From contig NZ_SMYZ01000060.1 of the NCBI RefSeq assembly GCF_004919685.1, positions 1-64,000 of the forward strand: DNA of 64,000 nt, given 5' to 3'. Below are positions 2,549-41,130 of this stretch, piece by piece (within the stretch, counting starts at the first letter, position 1; each line of letters opens with the position of its first letter). The stretch is from Mesorhizobium norvegicum (GTDB lineage Bacteria > Pseudomonadota > Alphaproteobacteria > Rhizobiales > Rhizobiaceae). The position numbers were made by a program, and so were the translations under genes. The notes under the pieces were generated by a model. The model was given only the letters and a program-made list of their open reading frames with translations, made no database searches and was not told the DNA's origin.

Positions 2549-3581
2549 TCGATTGATCATTCCGCTGAAAGAAGACTGGGGAAGGCGCAAACGTCGCCGC
2601 TCCTTGGAAGTGGTCTGATTGTATCCGAGTTTTGCCCTCACGATCTCGACGCCAGCGGACAACTGCAGGCTCGATTGTCGAGCTTCGCCGCTACCAAGAT
2701 CGAAAGGCCGTCCCTGTGTCGCGCTTGCCGTTCGCTCGGACTTCTCGATCGAGGAGCAGGTCCAGGCCGGCGGGGCCACCTAGCTCGACCGGCCAACTCA
2801 TCGGCGGGTGAGCCAATCGAACTCGGTGAGGTTGAATTTGGAAGGCATGTGAGGTGGGCGCTTGAGGATCGCACCGGTCATTTGGTCGAGCGGGCCTGGC
2901 TCGTCGCGAGGGGCTGCTGCACTGTGGCAGCAACCAAATCCGATCGTTGCAACGAAGAACCTCTTCCCTGCTTGCCAAACTAAATTCCCTGATAGGTGCG
3001 ATAGGGAATTTCAAATCTAAATTATTGGAATCATTGCCAAATACCGGGTGATTTTTGGCACGCTCGCTCTTTTTTTGCTAGATTTCCCTGTTTTTGGCGG
3101 GTTATCAGGGAAAGTCAGCCAGAGACCAGTTCGCTCCTAACTGGCAGTACCACCATTATCGTTATTTATCAATGGCTTATAGACTATTCTGACCTCGGTT
3201 AGCCCCTATCTGGCGAACCTCGTTGCATCGCTTTGATTTCGTTGACTTATGGTGGGCTACTGACAACCTGCGGGGTGCGCCACTGTTGCTGCGGACCGGG
3301 CGGGACAGGCGCTTTTTGCCATTCGTGGTCAGGATATGAAACCGGGAAAACCATCCTGTTCACCGTACCGCCACGCCCGGTTGACGCGATCCGCAGCAGT
3401 CAAGGAACGCCGGCCCCAAACAATCGTTCCAGCAAGGATTTTAACGTATCGGCGGCCAATTCAGCGAGCGTGGAATGACTAGTCAATCGAGTGTCGGAAG
3501 CGTACAAAGCAAGGGTCGCCAGCCTATGAACGGGCGCTGGCGATTGAAAGAGTCGATCACGCTTTCGCCCCTCCATGGGAG
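2549..3581. other. Non-coding stretch of about 1 kb
   Basis: I see no supportable gene on either strand. Open frames here lack recognisable domains and ribosome sites. The part from about 2990 to 3230 is clearly richer in A+T than the surroundings, with short repeats of a TTTCCCTG/CAGGGAAA type (around 2990, 3086 and 3110), and may be the scar of an old mobile element. The 3' part carries the EcfG-type promoter at 3404-3428, so roughly the last 150 bases are probably the leader of the histidine kinase gene. Confidence 0.5.
3404..3428 (+). promoter_or_regulatory. EcfG-type general stress promoter
   Basis: GGAAC at 3404-3408 and CGTT at 3425-3428 are separated by exactly 16 bases. This is the alphaproteobacterial EcfG consensus (GGAAC-N16/17-CGTT). 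It points toward the HWE kinase gene, leaving a leader of about 145 bases. The match is exact; activity is inferred. Confidence 0.6.
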
Positions 3582-31859: not shown

Positions 31860-31895
31860 TTGATACCAAATATCAGACATGCCGAGGATTGTTCC

Positions 31896-33098
31896 GTGGG
31901 CCTCATCGCTCCCCGTCTCGACGTCATCAAGCCAAGCCCCAGCATGGCGGTCACCGCGCGGGCAATCGAAATGCGCTCAGCCGGCATCGACGTCATCAGC
32001 CTGAGCGCCGGCGAGCCGGATTTTCCCACGCCTCCGCACATTGTCGAGGCGGCCTACGAGGCGATGCGCAGGGGGGAGACGCGCTATACGGCGGTGGACG
32101 GCACCGCCGCACTGAAAAAGGCGGTGGCCGGGAAATTCAGGCGCGAGAACGGCCTCGACTACAAGCCTTCGCAAGTCAGCGTCGCGGGTGGCGCCAAGCA
32201 GATCATCTACAACGCCCTGCTGGCAACGCTGGCCCCCGGCGACGAGGTGGTGGTTCCCGCGCCCTATTGGGTTTCCTACACCGACATCGTCCTGCTCGGC
32301 GAAGGCAAGCCCGTGGTCGTTGCCTGCACGGAGGCGGAAGGCTTCAAACTGACGCCGCAAGCCCTGCGAGCCGCCATTACCGAGCGCGCCAAATGGCTGC
32401 TGCTCAACACCCCTTCCAATCCGACAGGCGCCGTCTACAGCCGCGACGAACTTGCAGGCTTGGCCGCGGTGCTGCTCGATCACCCGCATGTGCATGTGCT
32501 GACCGACGACATCTACGAGCATATCCTGTTCGATGGGCGTGCCTTCCATACCATCGCCGGCGTCGAGCCGCGGCTGAAGGACCGCACGCTGACAGTCAAC
32601 GGCGTGTCGAAGGCCTATGCCATGACCGGCTGGCGGATCGGCTACGCCGGCGGGCCGGAAGAGTTGATCCGCGCCATGGCGACCGTGCAGAGCCAAAGCA
32701 CGTCGAACCCGTCATCCATCTCGCAGGCCGCGACCATAGCGGCACTGGAAGGCTCCCAGGACTTTCTTCCCCCGCGGGCGCTCGAATTCCAGGCGCGGCG
32801 CGACCGCGCTCTGCAGCTGCTGCGCAAGGTTCCCGGTCTCACCTGCCAGACGCCCGAGGGCGCCTTCTACCTCTATCCCAATTGCTCGGCCCTGATCGGT
32901 CGTCGCCGCCCGGACGGCGCTCCTATCGGCAGCGACGACGATTTCTCGCTTTACCTGCTCGATCAGGCGCGGGTCGCGGTGGTGCAGGGCTCTGCCTACG
33001 GCCTGTCGCCGCATTTCCGCATTTCCATAGCCACGTCGATGGAGCTGATCGAAAAAGCGATCGGGCGCATCGCCGAGGCTGTCGAAGCGCTGCAATAG
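31896..33098 (+). CDS. Class I aminotransferase, aspartate aminotransferase-like
   Basis: About 400 residues: [48 protein letters not shown]-binding Lys in [16 protein letters not shown]. It is of the AatA/1-beta type typical of rhizobia. GTG 31896 is taken as start (GAGG upstream and family N-terminus [13 protein letters not shown]); ATG 31860 in the operator region is the alternative. It is the first gene of an operon with the biotin carboxylase and PxpA genes (8-bp gap to the BCCP gene), so it probably removes the amino group of the substrate or product. Confidence 0.85.
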
Positions 33099-33106
33099 GG
33101 CCGGCG

Positions 33107-33556
33107 ATGGATCTCGACTTCGTCCAGAAGCTGATCGAATTTGTCTCGCGTTCGCCCATTGCCGAACTGGAGATCGAGCGCGACGGCGTTCGCATCCGCA
33201 TGTCCAGGCAGGCGGCGCCGGCGCAATCCGCGTCGCAGGCGCAGTCTTCGCCGCAGCCAACCGCAGGCACCGCCATCTCTTCAGATCCGGCTTCGACAGC
33301 TCCGCCTATCGCGCGTCATTCGATCCGCGCGCCGCTGACGGGCGTGTTCTACCGTTCCGGCACCGAAGGCGAACCGCCGCTGGTTGCGGTTGGCGATGTC
33401 ATCGCGGAAGGGCAGAAGGTCGGCGTCCTCGAAGCCATGAAGACGTTCAATGTCGTGGAATCCGATCGCACTGGGCGGATCGTCCAGATCGCGTTCGACG
33501 ACCATGCCGCCGTGCAGTCCGGCGATGTGCTGTTCGTTCTCGAAGATTTGGGCTGA
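33107..33556 (+). CDS. Biotin carboxyl carrier protein (AccB-like)
   Basis: 149 residues with the AccB layout: an N-terminal helical segment ([21 protein letters not shown]), an Ala/Pro/Gln/Ser-rich linker (about 35-70) and a C-terminal biotinyl domain ([11 protein letters not shown] ... [13 protein letters not shown]). Biotin would attach to Lys112. The motif reads EAMKTFN instead of the usual EAMKMMN. It is placed before accC in an operon with PxpA, not with accA/accD. It is therefore probably a second, specialised carrier beside the housekeeping fatty-acid one. Confidence 0.85.
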
Positions 33557-33561
33557 GGGCG

Positions 33562-34924
<1,363 letters not shown>

Positions 34925-34935
<11 letters not shown>

Positions 34936-35320
34936 GGAGATCGAAAGGCTGACCGCCTGGTGCGCAAGCGCCGGCATCGGCGAGATCGAACTGTCGGAGG
35001 CCGGCTTTTCGCTGCGCCTGCGTGTGCAGTCCGTTGTTGCCGAAACACCCGTGGCTGCGGTCGGAGCGCCGAAGGCCGAAACGGTCTTCAAGGGCGTGCG
35101 TGCGCCCGGCGTCGGCGTGTTCCGTCTCGATCATCCAACGACTGGTCGTCCGGTTGCCGAACCTGGCCGGACGGTCCGCAAGGGCGAGACGGTCGGCGTC
35201 CTGCAGGTCGGCCCATGCCTGAAAGCCATCGTTGCGCCGGCAGACGGCGTGCTGGGCGCGACACTGGCCGAGGACGGAGCGGTCGTCGGTTACGGCACGC
35301 CACTCTACGAGCTGGTGTGA
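34925..35320 (+). CDS. BCCP-like protein without the biotin-accepting lysine
   Basis: 131 residues with AccB-like ends: an N-terminal helix ([22 protein letters not shown]) and a C-terminal barrel ([11 protein letters not shown] ... [16 protein letters not shown] ... [24 protein letters not shown]). Where AccB has EAMK this protein has QVGP (94-97), so Pro97 replaces the biotinyl Lys; Lys100 is three residues later and out of register. It probably cannot carry biotin in the normal way and may be a structural or regulatory subunit. It is translationally coupled to accC by an 11-bp overlap. Confidence 0.75.
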
Positions 35321-35358: not shown

Positions 35359-36138
35359 ATGGCGGCCAAAGGATTGCAGGTCGATATCAATTCCGACATG
35401 GGCGAGGGTTTTGGAGCCTACAGGCTCGGCGACGATGCGGCGATCCTCGACATCGTCAGTTCCGCCAATGTGGCCTGCGGCTTTCATGCCGGCGACCCCG
35501 AGATCATGGCGGCCACGTTCTCGATGGCGCGCGACAAGGGCGTTGCCGTTGGCGCGCATCCGAGCTTCGCTGATCTGTGGGGATTCGGACGCCGCATCAT
35601 CCCGCATTCCATGGATGAGATCGAAAGGCTGGTCGCCTACCAGATCGGCGCGGCGCAGGCGCTTTCCGCCTATGCCGGCCACCCGATCCGCTATGTGAAG
35701 GCGCATGGCGCGCTGGGCAACCTTACCCAGACGGACCGTGGCGTCGCCGAAGCCGTGACGCGCGCGGTCAAGGCCGTCGATCCCGGCCTGATCTGCCTGG
35801 CCATTGCGCTCGGCTTCCAGGACAGGATCGCACGTGACGCGGGCCTGACGGTCAGGTCCGAAATCTTCGCCGACCGCGCCTATACGGAGGACGGCTTTCT
35901 TGTCTCGCGCAAGCTGGAAGGCGCGGTCATTCACGACGCCGAAAAGGCGGCGGAACGGGTCGTGCGGATGGTCAAGCAAGGCGCCATCGAGACGCTTTCC
36001 GGGCAGATGCTGCAGACGCCGATCGATTCGATCTGCGTCCACAGCGACACGCCGGCGGCCGTCGCCATCGCCGCGCACGTCAGGAAACGGCTGGAGGCGA
36101 GCGGCGTCAGCGTCAGGGCGTTCGCGGCAACGGCCTGA
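35359..36138 (+). CDS. pxpA: LamB/YcsF family, 5-oxoprolinase subunit A
   Basis: 259 residues: DINSDMGEGFGAYRLGDDAAILDIVSSANVACGFHAGDP at the N-terminus is diagnostic, followed by GAHPSFADLWGFGRR, YVKAHGALGN and the C-terminal ICVHSDTP. PxpA acts with PxpB and PxpC in ATP-dependent opening of 5-oxoproline to glutamate. ATG 35359 has GAGGAA at good spacing; ATG 35332 is an alternative. pxpB and pxpC are not adjacent but lie in the convergent operon 3.3 kb away, an unusual split arrangement. Confidence 0.87.
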   Translation: MAAKGLQVDINSDMGEGFGAYRLGDDAAILDIVSSANVACGFHAGDPEIMAATFSMARDKGVAVGAHPSFADLWGFGRRIIPHSMDEIERLVAYQIGAAQALSAYAGHPIRYVKAHGALGNLTQTDRGVAEAVTRAVKAVDPGLICLAIALGFQDRIARDAGLTVRSEIFADRAYTEDGFLVSRKLEGAVIHDAEKAAERVVRMVKQGAIETLSGQMLQTPIDSICVHSDTPAAVAIAAHVRKRLEASGVSVRAFAATA

Positions 36139-36189: not shown

Positions 36190-37215
36190 TCAGAACCAGA
36201 CGTCGCTGAGGCGATGGCCGCGTGGATAAGGGTCTGTCGGGTCGAGGCCATATTGGCCGATGCTGGTGATCCAGGCCTGTCCGGCGATGGTGACGACGAC
36301 GGCGTCGCGATCGCCGACGCGCGCATTGGCGATCACGCGGGAATCGAAATGGGTCCCGATGATCGACTTGTTGCGGAACAGCTCGCCCTTGGCGATCTGG
36401 CCCTTTGCCGACATCACCGCCAGCCGCCCGGTGGTGCCGGTGCCTGTCGGCGAGCGGTCGAGCCTGCCATGCAGGCACACCGTGCCGTTGATGCTTTCCA
36501 CGCGCCCGTCGACGCGCTCGATCGGGCCTTCGAAAATCACGTTGGACACGTCGCGGATCTTCGCGTTCTCCGGATGCACGACAACGAGCTGCTCGTTGAC
36601 CGCCTTCTTGATGCGTTGGCCCATCAACGACATCTGGTGGGCCTCGTCGGGTTTGACAGTGAAGCCGAGTGCGCGCGCATTGACATGGGCGAAAGTCATG
36701 CCGCCGTAGGAGGTGTCGACGGTGATCGTGCCGAGCCCCTCGACTTCGACATGCGTGTCGAGGTGGAAGGCGAAAGCCGGCACATTGGTGAACTCCACCT
36801 GCTTCACCTTGCCGTTCTCGCAGAGGCAGCGCACCTCGATCATGCCGGCCGGCGCTTCCATGCGTAGCCGCGTCTCGGGTTCCTTCATCGGCACCATGCC
36901 CGTCTCCAGCGCGACGGTGGCGACGCAGATGGTGTTGGAGCCCGACATGGGTGGGTATTCGGTGCTTTCGAGGATCACATAGCCGAGGTCGGCCGAGCGA
37001 TCGCAGGGCGGCAGGATGATGTTGGCGTTGACGTAGGGCGCGCCGCGCGGTTCGAAGAGAACGAGCCCGCGTATGTCATCCATATGCTCTTGCAGATATT
37101 CCTTCTTTTCGAACATGGTCTTGCCGGGCACGTCCATGACGCCACCGGTGATCACATTGCCGACCTCTCCCTCGGCATGGCAGCCGACGACCGTGAATGT
37201 TCTTGACCAGCGCAT
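36190..37215 (-). CDS. Proline racemase-family protein lacking both catalytic cysteines
   Basis: 341 residues of the proline racemase/hydroxyproline epimerase/trans-3-hydroxyproline dehydratase family. The first catalytic position, normally Cys in MCGH, is Ser91 in MSGSNT, and the following His is also lost. The second, normally Cys in DRSPCGTGT, is Thr257 in DRSPTGTGT. A Thr at the second site occurs in trans-3-hydroxyproline dehydratases, but those keep the first Cys. Racemisation by the two-cysteine mechanism is therefore excluded; dehydration or another proton-transfer reaction is possible. It follows an Ldh-family reductase gene by 54 bp in the same operon, the partner expected for pyrroline-2-carboxylate reduction. 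Confidence 0.82.
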   Translation of the reverse strand: MRWSRTFTVVGCHAEGEVGNVITGGVMDVPGKTMFEKKEYLQEHMDDIRGLVLFEPRGAPYVNANIILPPCDRSADLGYVILESTEYPPMSGSNTICVATVALETGMVPMKEPETRLRMEAPAGMIEVRCLCENGKVKQVEFTNVPAFAFHLDTHVEVEGLGTITVDTSYGGMTFAHVNARALGFTVKPDEAHQMSLMGQRIKKAVNEQLVVVHPENAKIRDVSNVIFEGPIERVDGRVESINGTVCLHGRLDRSPTGTGTTGRLAVMSAKGQIAKGELFRNKSIIGTHFDSRVIANARVGDRDAVVVTIAGQAWITSIGQYGLDPTDPYPRGHRLSDVWF

Positions 37216-38339: not shown

Positions 38340-39503
38340 TTAAAAATCCAGACCACCGGCAAAGGCTCTTAAATCCTGTGCAAGCAAAGCGGGCTGCTCG
38401 AGGGCTGCGAAATGACCACCGCGCGGCATCGCTGTCCACTGGCGGATGTCCTTGAAGACGCGCTCGACCCAGCTCCTTGGCGGCATCGGCAGCTCTTTGG
38501 GAAACAAAGCCACCGCAAGCGGGACGTCGATCGCCGTGCCGGGCGGGAATGCAAGCGGGCGGGCGCGCGTTTCCCAATAGAGCCGCATCGACGAAGCGGC
38601 GGTCCGGGTGAACCAGTAAAGCGAGATGTTGGCGAGCATGTCGTCCTGTGAAAGAGCGGCCTTGCCCAGATCGCCATCGCAATCGCTCCAGTCGCGGAAT
38701 TTTTCGATCATCCAGGCGGCCAGTCCGACCGGCGAATCCGTCAGCCCGTAGGCAAGCGTTTGCGGACGCGTGCCTTGAATATGGCCGTACGCGCCATGAA
38801 GATCCGCCCATGCGGCCTTCCGTTCCAGGAAGGCGCGCTCTTCCGACGTCAAGTCGCCGGCCGGACCCGGGTCGTGCGGGGGTGAGAATGAGCCGGGGAT
38901 GAAATTCAGATGCACCCCGGCGAGACTGTCTGGATGCGCGTGTGCCAGACATGTCGACACGCTGGCGCCCAGATCGCCTCCCTGGGCGAGATATCGCTCA
39001 TAGCCGAGTCGGTTCATCAACTCGGCCCAAAGGTCGGCAATTGTGAACAGGTTGAGACCAGGCCTGGTCGGCCGGCTTGAAAAGCCATAGCCGGGAATCG
39101 ATGGGACCACGACATTGAAGGCATCCGCCTGTCTTCCGCCATGCGAAAGCGGGTCGGACAGAAGCGGGATCAGCCTATGAAATTCGAAGACGCTGCCTGG
39201 CCAGCCATGGGTGAGTAAGACCGTTCTGCCGGTCGCAACAGCGGCGCGCGCATGGATGAAATGGATGGTTTCGCCGCCGATATCCGTCTGGTAGTGCGGA
39301 TGGATGGTCCAGGCGGCTTCCTGCTTGCGCCAGTCGAAGCCGGTGCGCCAGTGCTGCATAAGTCGCCGCAGTTCCTCATGCTCTGTTCCCTGCGCCCAGC
39401 CTATTGCCTGCAACTGGTCCGGCTCGCGCCAGTTTGAGATGCGATTCCTCAAATCGTCGATTTCGGACTGGGCAATCTCGATCGTGAAGGGGCGAATTTT
39501 CAT
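38340..39503 (-). CDS. Epoxide hydrolase-family alpha/beta hydrolase (EHN domain)
   Basis: 387 residues. The N-terminal EHN domain (about 1-110: PFTIEIAQSEIDDLRNRI, DWRKQEAAWTIHPHYQTDI) precedes an alpha/beta hydrolase core with oxyanion motif HGWPG (99-103), nucleophile Asp177 in QGGDLGAS and the C-terminal His in GGHFAALE. This is the microsomal/juvenile hormone epoxide hydrolase architecture. The start overlaps the PxpC stop (ATGA), so it is in the operon, although an epoxide step is unexpected beside oxoprolinase genes; it might hydrolyse another ester-like or epoxide intermediate. Confidence 0.82.
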   Translation of the reverse strand: MKIRPFTIEIAQSEIDDLRNRISNWREPDQLQAIGWAQGTEHEELRRLMQHWRTGFDWRKQEAAWTIHPHYQTDIGGETIHFIHARAAVATGRTVLLTHGWPGSVFEFHRLIPLLSDPLSHGGRQADAFNVVVPSIPGYGFSSRPTRPGLNLFTIADLWAELMNRLGYERYLAQGGDLGASVSTCLAHAHPDSLAGVHLNFIPGSFSPPHDPGPAGDLTSEERAFLERKAAWADLHGAYGHIQGTRPQTLAYGLTDSPVGLAAWMIEKFRDWSDCDGDLGKAALSQDDMLANISLYWFTRTAASSMRLYWETRARPLAFPPGTAIDVPLAVALFPKELPMPPRSWVERVFKDIRQWTAMPRGGHFAALEQPALLAQDLRAFAGGLDF

Positions 39504-40471
39504 GGGGCCCTCTGCTCGCCGACCATGAGGTTCCGGGCGGCGATAAAGTCGCGACGACGCTGCCGATTCGCGCGAAGCGCTTCTGTCGACGCTTCGATCG
39601 AGACCGCTGAGAAACGCAGGCGCGCGCCGACCGGCGCTTGCGCCAGCCGCCAGAAATCGGCTTCGATCACCGTAACGATCTTCGGATAGCCGCCGCACGT
39701 GTTGGCATCAGCAAGCTGGATGATCGGCTGGCCGGACGGCGGCACCTGGACGGTGCCCGGCACGATGCCATGCGACAGCAATTCCAGCGGTGAAAGGAGC
39801 GAAAGCGTCTCGCCGGAAAGGCGGTATCCCATACGGTTGGCGTCGTTGGTGATGCTCCATTCGCTGCCGGTGAAAGCCGCCTGGGCCTCCGGCGTGAAGG
39901 CGTCGAATTCGGCGGCCGGCAGAACCCGCAATTCGATTACCGAGGCCGCCGCGCCTCGTCGCTCCTCCAGCGCTGCGCCAAACCCGCCCGCGGGAAGGCG
40001 GCATTGCGCAGGGTTGAGCGCAAGCCTGTCGCCGCGCGACAGGCCGCGTCCGGTGAGCCCGCCGAAACTGCCTTTCACATCCGTCGCGCGCGACCCCATG
40101 ACGGGCGGCAGATCGAGCCCGCCGGCAAAGGCGACATAGGAACGCGCACCGACGCGCGGGGCTTCAAGGACAAGGGTCTCGCCGGCGCGGATCGTCATCG
40201 CCCACCAGGGTGGGCAGGGCCGGTCGCCGACGCTGACGGCGCAATCGGCGCCGGTGATGGCGACGGCGGTGTCGACATGCGTGCGCAGCCTGAACGGATG
40301 AAGCGCGACCTCGATCCCGGCAGCCGAGGGATCATTGCCCAGCATGAGATTGGCGATCGCCAGCGCTTGCCTGTCCATGGCGCCGCCATGGGTGACCCCC
40401 AGCGCCAGATGACCGGGCCGGCCGAGATCCTGGACCGTGTTCGGCAGGCCGGTGGTGAGGATCTCGATCAT
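39500..40471 (-). CDS. pxpC: 5-oxoprolinase subunit C / AHS2 carboxyltransferase-like
   Basis: 323 residues of the KipA/AHS2 family: TVQDLGRPGHLALGVTHGGAMD, GNDPSAAGIEV, VAFAGGLDLPPVMGSRATD, SNDANRMGYRL-like segment (TNDANRMGYRL) and GIVPGTVQVPPSGQPIIQLADANTCGGYPK. Together with PxpB it forms the complex that opens 5-oxoproline. The same pair of domains forms the carboxyltransferase part of urea carboxylase, which suggests partnership with the AccC/AccB genes of the facing operon. It overlaps pxpB and the epoxide hydrolase gene by 4 bp each. Confidence 0.87.
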   Translation of the reverse strand: MIEILTTGLPNTVQDLGRPGHLALGVTHGGAMDRQALAIANLMLGNDPSAAGIEVALHPFRLRTHVDTAVAITGADCAVSVGDRPCPPWWAMTIRAGETLVLEAPRVGARSYVAFAGGLDLPPVMGSRATDVKGSFGGLTGRGLSRGDRLALNPAQCRLPAGGFGAALEERRGAAASVIELRVLPAAEFDAFTPEAQAAFTGSEWSITNDANRMGYRLSGETLSLLSPLELLSHGIVPGTVQVPPSGQPIIQLADANTCGGYPKIVTVIEADFWRLAQAPVGARLRFSAVSIEASTEALRANRQRRRDFIAARNLMVGEQRAP

Positions 40472-41130
40472 GCCTCGATCCCTGCGATTGCGAAGCGGAT
40501 CTTGTCTCCGGGTCTGAGCAGCACGGGCAATTCCGCTTCGGCGTTGAACAGCTTCACGTCGGTATGGCCGATTATGTGCCATCCGGACGGTGCGGTCATC
40601 GGCATGATACCCGCTTGCGCGCCACCAATGATGACGGCGCCCTCAATGACTTTGAGGCGAGGCGTGCTGCGCCTTGCCCAGGCAAGCCGCGGGTCGAGAC
40701 CGGACAGATAGGGAAAGCCCGGCATGGCGCCGATGGCGGCGACGGTGTAGGTGGCCGCCACGTGACGCCTGACGATCTCGTCGACAGACAGGCCGCAATG
40801 CGCGGCCCAGCCGGCGAGATCCTCGCCGCTCGCGCCGCCATAGCTGACGGGAATGGTATGATGCGTGCCCACAACCGCGTGGGCATCGGTGGCGGCCCAG
40901 AGCGACATGAGCTGACCGCCGACGCTGTGGGCGTCCGTAGCGAGCGGGTCAAACACCACCAGCAGGTTGTTCATGCCGGGAACGGCCTCGCGCACCCCCT
41001 CGAGACTCAGCGCGGCATTCGCCACCGCCCAGACCAGTTCCTGGGTGGCATCATCGAAAGCCCCCTTCGCGCCATCAAGCAGCAGCGCGCCTGATCCCGC
41101 AAGACTGATGTGGGGCGTACCGACAACCAT
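40468..41130 (-). CDS. pxpB: 5-oxoprolinase subunit B / AHS1 (KipI family)
   Basis: 220 residues: an N-terminal ferredoxin-like part (NAALSLEGVREAVPGMNNLLVVFDP) and a C-terminal cyclophilin-like part with HTIPVSYGGASGEDL, GAMPGFPYLSGLDPRLAWARR and APSGWHIIGHT. The last motifs are highly diagnostic for PxpB/KipI and allophanate hydrolase subunit 1. It is cotranscribed with pxpC (4-bp overlap), 6 bp after an SDR gene. The partner PxpA is encoded in the convergent operon. Confidence 0.88.
   Translation of the reverse strand: MVVGTPHISLAGSGALLLDGAKGAFDDATQELVWAVANAALSLEGVREAVPGMNNLLVVFDPLATDAHSVGGQLMSLWAATDAHAVVGTHHTIPVSYGGASGEDLAGWAAHCGLSVDEIVRRHVAATYTVAAIGAMPGFPYLSGLDPRLAWARRSTPRLKVIEGAVIIGGAQAGIMPMTAPSGWHIIGHTDVKLFNAEAELPVLLRPGDKIRFAIAGIEA

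Follow-up and report, generated by a model that had tools for sequence, protein, structure and literature searches.

Introduction

In plants, the BADC proteins are 25-30% identical to the biotin carboxyl carrier protein (BCCP) and lack its AMKL motif; in the excerpted text of PMC11926652, they are described as proposed inhibitors that were later reported to act as a 'glue' for biotin carboxylase (BC) and BCCP, contacting the thumb side of BCCP1. Small non-catalytic subunits are also said there to assemble bacterial acyl-CoA carboxylases (PMC11926652, excerpt). For the 5-oxoprolinase PxpABC, the scheme assumed in the excerpted part of PMC13274462 is a phosphorylation of 5-oxoproline with neither a biotin carboxylase nor a BCCP. 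An extra BCCP and BC have been found in Lactiplantibacillus pentosus, where the available portion of PMC12427679 reads them as an acetyl-CoA carboxylase. In the open-licence PMC literature, no report was found of a bacterial lysine-less BCCP subunit or of a biotin-dependent PxpABC (an AccBC-PxpABC enzyme).

The gene analysed here, from Mesorhizobium norvegicum, encodes an AccB-like protein without the biotinyl lysine, called BCCP2 to distinguish it from the canonical BCCP1 of the same locus. Like BADC, it is a lysine-less BCCP paralogue found alongside a biotin carboxylase and a BCCP that can be biotinylated (PMC11926652, excerpt); unlike BADC, which belongs to the plastid acetyl-CoA carboxylase, it is bacterial and stands beside pxpABC, and its origin is, at a guess, separate. 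In the preferred reading, to which a probability of about 0.5 is given, BCCP2 would be a dedicated, non-biotinylated and BADC-like assembly subunit of a biotin-dependent enzyme composed of AccC, BCCP1, PxpBC and PxpA.

The locus

The window, i.e., the whole stretch of DNA analysed, comprises 64,000 nucleotides (positions 1 to 64,000 of contig NZ_SMYZ01000060.1). Its plus strand carries, in this order, the aminotransferase, BCCP1, AccC, BCCP2 and PxpA genes (Table 1), with the EAMK-bearing BCCP1 directly before accC; on the minus strand past PxpA, a proline racemase family gene and two other genes are followed by PxpC and PxpB. The families of the PxpABC 5-oxoprolinase are thus all present, PF03746, PF02682 and PF02626 scoring over cut-off, but a full BC-BCCP set is co-encoded with them here, unlike in the biotin-free scheme of PMC13274462 (excerpt). 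The open frame of BCCP2 (P0001, 131 aa) runs from an ATG at 34925 to a stop at 35318-35320 and, as the initial annotation had stated, directly follows accC and overlaps it. The same 11-nt overlap recurs in M. ciceri WSM1271 and on a P. aeruginosa plasmid. In the twin region of M. ciceri WSM1271, BCCP2 carries the annotation 'biotin attachment protein'; among the genes around it are those of an Ldh family oxidoreductase, an epoxide hydrolase, an SDR and RraA. A second pxp cluster exists in the genome of the window (L117, G000:C167:113686-128501), consisting of PxpC, AccC, a short BCCP with the lysine still in place (EVMKSFHEV), and PxpA; no BCCP2 was seen in that stretch.

Table 1. Features of the BCCP2 locus, in positions of the window.
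Feature	Position	Strand	Basis
PLP aminotransferase, precedes BCCP1	31860..33098	+	ORF, with its start codon in doubt
BCCP1, canonical biotin carboxyl carrier protein, EAMK at 33431-33442	33107..33556	+	Pfam, sequence
AccC, biotin carboxylase	33562..34935	+	Pfam, NCBIfam
BCCP2, lysine-less AccB-like protein, 131 aa (P0001)	34925..35320	+	ORF, Pfam, model, 54-locus comparison
accC/BCCP2 11-nt overlap	34925..34935	+	accC stop at 34933-34935
N-terminal module of BCCP2, residues 1-36	34925..35032	+	AccB N-terminus homology, predicted structure
His70-Pro71, thumb loop of BCCP2	35132..35137	+	thumb placed by alignment
QVGP (residues 94-97) where EAMK would stand	35204..35215	+	alignment, predicted structure
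PxpA (LamB/YcsF)	35359..36138	+	PF03746; subfamily NF003814 over cut-off
Proline racemase family protein	36190..37215	-	Pfam; context
PxpC, carboxyltransferase subdomain A/B	39500..40471	-	PF02626
PxpB, carboxyltransferase subdomain C/D	40468..41130	-	PF02682; TIGR00370 over cut-off

An AccB fold without the biotinyl lysine

The biotinyl barrel of BCCP2 is recognized by Pfam (PF00364, Biotin_lipoyl, residues 58-130 of P0001, 24.2 bits against a cut-off of 22.1), and the same family is found in all 26 aligned BCCP2s at E<=0.1. The NCBIfam model TIGR00531 gives 40.7 bits for P0001, under its cut-off of 115.2, and 16.4-58.6 bits for five further BCCP2s; the BCCP1 of the window, at 97.2 bits, is also under that cut-off. 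When a profile of the 26 BCCP2s is set against E. coli BCCP (4hr7_B), the alignment (E 7.5e-15) covers profile positions 1-127, with the N-terminal part included; this bears out the earlier description of the protein as AccB-shaped. In the AlphaFold2 model (mean pLDDT 82.7, pTM 0.56), a helix and two strands at the N-terminus (residues 3-15, 20-25 and 28-33) are followed by a linker (38-52, pLDDT below 50) and a barrel whose ten-residue blocks reach pLDDT 87-94; residues 96-97 form the turn of what was the biotin hairpin. Its best match among solved structures is again E. coli BCCP (4hr7_G, Z 13.5, with an rmsd of 1.5 across 77 residues), a comparison that says little about the N-terminal module. 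E. coli AccB (4hr7/1bdo) and BCCP2 align over their whole length, through N-terminal module, linker, barrel and thumb, and their barrels superpose; the difference lies in the missing biotinyl lysine of BCCP2, and the mean identity of BCCP1 and BCCP2 from the same locus is only 25%.

LEAMKTFN of BCCP1 lies opposite LQVGPCLK of BCCP2 with no gaps around the site, and Pro97 takes the position of the biotinyl lysine, so the replacement of EAMK by QVGP and the loss of the attachment lysine were read correctly in the initial annotation. Across 54 distinct loci with two BCCPs (see below), none has a lysine in the second copy, and the residue found at the site is P in 28, G in 11, Q in one, and A, D, H, E, S, V or T in two each. 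Conservation of the QVGPCLK pattern near accC and pxpA, which had been put forward for comparison, holds for the absence of lysine, conserved more widely, and not for the exact string, which was seen only in Mesorhizobium; beyond the lysine absence, most BCCP2s share a hydrophobic hairpin resembling xGPLLLPV.

Biotin at a different residue, or another covalent group, might be sought in Lys100 near the hairpin tip of P0001. Among 53 unique BCCP2 rows, however, no lysine column is conserved as a substitute (the highest reaches 43%), and the sole potentially reactive side chain in columns at least 80% conserved is that of the thumb His, which makes this reading very unlikely. To judge from its sequence, BCCP2 cannot take part in biotin carboxyl transfer at the usual site; lacking (E)AMK, it is predicted not to be a BCCP by function.

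Distribution and gene order

A search of the order with P0001 matched 283 of 397 genomes at E<=0.001, mostly weakly. Among the 30 loci listed from this search, 22 are lysine-less (L009-L029 and L031, the window's own included) and span six genera in four families, and the remaining eight (L030, L032-L038) retain AMK or VMK. In pxp context, 62 loci with two BCCPs were assembled, the window included, or 54 distinct ones once identical pairs are removed, distributed over alpha-, beta- and gammaproteobacteria. Homologues in this context that keep AMK, in which the initial annotation would have seen a sign of simple decay, were sought here, and each of the 54 loci pairs exactly one lysine-bearing copy with one lysine-less copy. 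All three pxp genes are present in 51 of them; AccC lies within the examined stretch in 41 and is absent there in 13.

The gene order varies between lineages; the four main arrangements are those headed here by Mesorhizobium, Rhizobium, Bradyrhizobium and Pleomorphomonas. It is aminotransferase-BCCP1-AccC-BCCP2-PxpA in Mesorhizobium, with PxpBC apart; BCCP1-AccC-BCCP2-PxpB-PxpC-PxpA in Rhizobium and Phyllobacterium; BCCP1-AccC-PxpB-PxpC-BCCP2-PxpA in Bradyrhizobium, Microvirga, Burkholderia, Cupriavidus and Variovorax; BCCP1-AccC-PxpB-PxpC-PxpA-BCCP2 in Moraxella osloensis and in genomes G832, G1330 and G1356; PxpB-PxpC-PxpA-BCCP1-AccC-BCCP2 on the P. aeruginosa plasmid; and PxpA-BCCP1-BCCP2 facing PxpC-PxpB, without AccC, in Pleomorphomonas. 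In each of seven searched genomes of the Pleomorphomonas type (genus g102), only two places resemble AccC at E<=1e-100. One of the two belongs to an ORF some 1,160-1,190 aa long and is probably pyruvate carboxylase, so that BCCP2 would need the one remaining AccC.

BCCP2 was found without BCCP1 at three further loci. One of these (L202) lies at a contig end, and so does another (L231), which by its length is the other side of a broken locus counted as L058. At the third (L129 of genome G949, 3028-3552), a divergent lysine-less BCCP2 (FIKVGVVYIPL) accompanies pxpABC, and neither BCCP1 nor AccC was found within about 20 kb more on each side; this BCCP2 is either a relic or a partner of the housekeeping enzyme.

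A profile of the BCCP2 alignment matched 325 of 385 genomes of the class and was not selective. A Cupriavidus BCCP2 query matched none of 250 genomes in the order of G974, a result that, lacking a positive control, carries no weight. A search of the order of G832 gave matches (E<=1e-6) in 100 of 145 genomes; the 20 loci listed comprise 17 AccB with lysine beside AccC and three lysine-less ones (S, T, T), all three in pxp context. P0001 matched 176 plasmid records, and among 13 examined, 11 are pxp loci with a lysine-less BCCP2, the other two being a Paucilactobacillus fatty-acid BCCP with lysine and a lysine-less Rhodococcus protein in a different context.

Lysine-less BCCPs thus occur outside pxp clusters too. 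The Rhodococcus protein (L096, 6737-7228, R. pyridinivorans plasmid pA) reads VEVARLKMPV and adjoins a carboxyltransferase and acyl-CoA dehydrogenases, with no pxp annotation in the stretch. In a Candidatus Zipacnadia MAG (Armatimonadota; L235, 4744-5175), the BCCP before accC has EALGK instead of EAMK, and its biotin site may have been shifted or lost.

A BCCP-blind census of PxpC loci

Since most of the 54 loci had been gathered with BCCP2 queries, a second count, blind to BCCP, was made. PxpC (PF02626) was detected in 102 of 299 Pseudomonadota genomes at E<=1e-20. As PF02626 also matches frames of about 1,200 aa, places in frames longer than 1,000 aa (urea-carboxylase-sized) were left out together with a contig-edge fragment (G042), and the census comprises 100 non-fused PxpC places, i.e., 95 new ones, four from the earlier locus set and the window. 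Neither AccC nor BCCP occurs at 74 of these. Eleven loci have an AccC-BCCP fusion bearing the lysine (a twelfth, L153, is under the score limit of the main count), and six have a separate short lysine-bearing BCCP with no N-terminal module. A two-domain BCCP1 is present at six loci, and at all six BCCP2 is present as well; five of the six come from the window's own family, and they are therefore not independent. BCCP2 is found at none of the 17 loci that have only a short or AccC-fused lysine-bearing BCCP. One locus has BCCP2 alone (L129), and one, cut by a contig end, has AccC only (L120). From six of six against none of 17, it follows that BCCP2 accompanies a two-domain BCCP1 that stands free, and that it does not occur with a tethered or short carrier.

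A cluster type of its own, in which PxpA and PxpC are joined by the AccC-BCCP fusion, was observed at L132, L139, L141, L148, L149, L152-L154, L157, L163, L165 and L172, suggesting that such clusters are biotin-dependent relatives of PxpABC.

Two observations that count against an assembly role are the 13 of 54 loci with AccC missing from the examined stretch and the G949 locus, where BCCP2 and pxpABC stand without local BCCP1 or AccC. Together with the pxp context of the family, the same observations would favour an adaptor of PxpABC, in which BCCP2 binds PxpBC or PxpA as a dummy plug or clamp and not the biotin carboxylase side. This is rather unlikely: among the 75 loci of the census that have neither AccC nor BCCP1, just one (L129) has BCCP2, and the AccB-type N-terminal module is retained in separate BCCP2 copies.

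Selection, conservation and descent

Pairwise dN/dS values (NG86) have a median of 0.27 in BCCP2, 0.28 in BCCP1, 0.10 in AccC and PxpA, and 0.18-0.19 in PxpB and PxpC. The 12 loci compared are the window's, ten from Mesorhizobium and one from a Hyphomicrobiales MAG, with 11 available for PxpB and PxpC. BCCP2 is under purifying selection like BCCP1. Residue conservation was computed on 53 unique BCCP2 and 51 unique BCCP1 rows. His70-Pro71 is invariant in the 26 aligned BCCP2s, reaches 96% and 94% in the 53 rows and is not the BCCP1 consensus; also specific to BCCP2 are a Leu two residues past the lost lysine (94%) and a Gly in VGxG (92%). By alignment, the His-Pro pair of BCCP2 lies at the thumb; in plants, it is the thumb side of BCCP1 that BADC is reported to touch (PMC11926652, excerpt).

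Decay, with the lysine lost through drift and the gene disappearing, could account for the missing lysine and for the variety of residues replacing it (P, G, A, D, H, E, S, V, T, Q). It is extremely improbable, and BCCP2 as a decaying BCCP was ruled out by the dN/dS of 0.27, the conserved residues of its own and the 54 of 54 loci, none with a lysine-bearing second copy; the frame, moreover, is open and conserved across alpha-, beta- and gammaproteobacteria. A single ancient origin, which the tree allows, and the co-variation with BCCP1 (both described below) likewise tell against decay. The lysine absence in all 54 loci, the purifying selection and BCCP2's own conserved residues uphold the earlier argument that BCCP2 does something else than carry biotin, and among the roles then named (scaffold, regulator or anchor), a scaffold is best supported.

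In a 102-row tree computed with the site removed (model columns 108-117) and matches below 60 bits left out, 40 BCCP2s need two label changes, with weakly supported deep branches. Near-duplicates were omitted (L039, L041, L043-L045, L047, L049, L054, L055, L057, L058, L202, L205-L207, L211, L217, L221, L222, L224 and L228), and the window's BCCP1 and BCCP2 are represented by close Mesorhizobium relatives. Because the gammaproteobacterial pair of Moraxella and G832 stands apart from the other BCCP2s, two origins are possible; a single origin is not rejected (AU p 0.62), the held-together tree scoring slightly better. Mean identity is 0.35 among BCCP2s vs 0.25 to the BCCP1 of their own locus, and the distance matrices of BCCP1 and BCCP2 are correlated (Mantel r 0.89, with 0 of 2000 permutations as high). 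This correlation and the shared context would also follow from co-inheritance without contact. BCCP2 is an old duplicate inherited together with BCCP1.

A natural fusion of BCCP1 and BCCP2

In a single draft genome (G243; L052/L262), one ORF, whose ATG overlaps the PxpA stop, joins a BCCP1 barrel (EAMK) through a Pro/Ala-rich linker to a BCCP2 barrel (EANGLLLP). The fusion suggests that BCCP1 and BCCP2 act together. Both N-terminal modules, present in the relatives G333 and G393, are gone from it, and their joint loss suggests that these modules normally join the two proteins.

The existence of this fusion also weighs against the idea of a regulator or brake, in which BCCP2 would compete with BCCP1 for AccC or PxpBC and lower activity under some condition. 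A shared BCCP fold without the lysine would suit such a competitor, and inhibition was proposed for plant BADC (PMC11926652, excerpt), yet one-for-one encoding beside BCCP1 would be odd for a conditional inhibitor, and the constraint on BCCP2's own residues speaks against it as well. A braking role is accordingly considered unlikely.

Proposed function

In the preferred reading of BCCP2 as an assembly subunit, AccC and BCCP1 would provide carboxybiotin; PxpB-PxpC, a urea-carboxylase-like carboxyltransferase from two families that also make up the carboxyltransferase part of urea carboxylase, would carboxylate an amide or a lactam; and PxpA would open the ring. BCCP2 keeps the AccB N-terminal module and the thumbed barrel, its biotin hairpin having turned into a lysine-free hydrophobic tip, and most likely it would pair with BCCP1 and hold it in the putative complex of biotin carboxylase and carboxyltransferase. 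This role is proposed because the N-terminal module, thumb and fold are kept, the pairing with BCCP1 is strict, and the two are fused in G243. We infer the physical partners and the assembly role of BCCP2, and likewise a biotin-dependent step in which this enzyme carboxylates a lactam, 5-oxoproline for instance.

The non-catalytic subunits of bacterial acyl-CoA carboxylases, the epsilon subunits, are not known to be BCCP homologues and differ from BCCP2 in this respect. What they would have in common with it is their small size and the assembly of a carboxylase (PMC11926652, excerpt). The nearest functional parallel of BCCP2, as far as the sequence can tell, would be plant BADC. More tentatively, BCCP2 may be a proteobacterial BADC, that is, an old BCCP duplicate that has forsaken biotin and become an obligatory subunit of an AccC-BCCP1-BCCP2-PxpBC-PxpA lactam carboxylase-hydrolase, an undescribed biotin-using relative of 5-oxoprolinase, and absent where BCCP is tethered to AccC or is without the N-terminal module.

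Implications

Four of ten annotated BCCP2s are named 'acetyl-CoA carboxylase' or its 'biotin carboxyl carrier protein subunit', although biotinylation at the usual site is impossible for these four. The analysis points to pxp clusters of a kind whose biotin chemistry the assumed PxpABC mechanism leaves unexplained. If the proposed role is true, the turning of a biotin carrier into a structural subunit would not be confined to plants and would have arisen in bacterial catabolic enzymes too, and BCCP2 would offer a small bacterial system for the disputed role of such proteins as glue or inhibitor.
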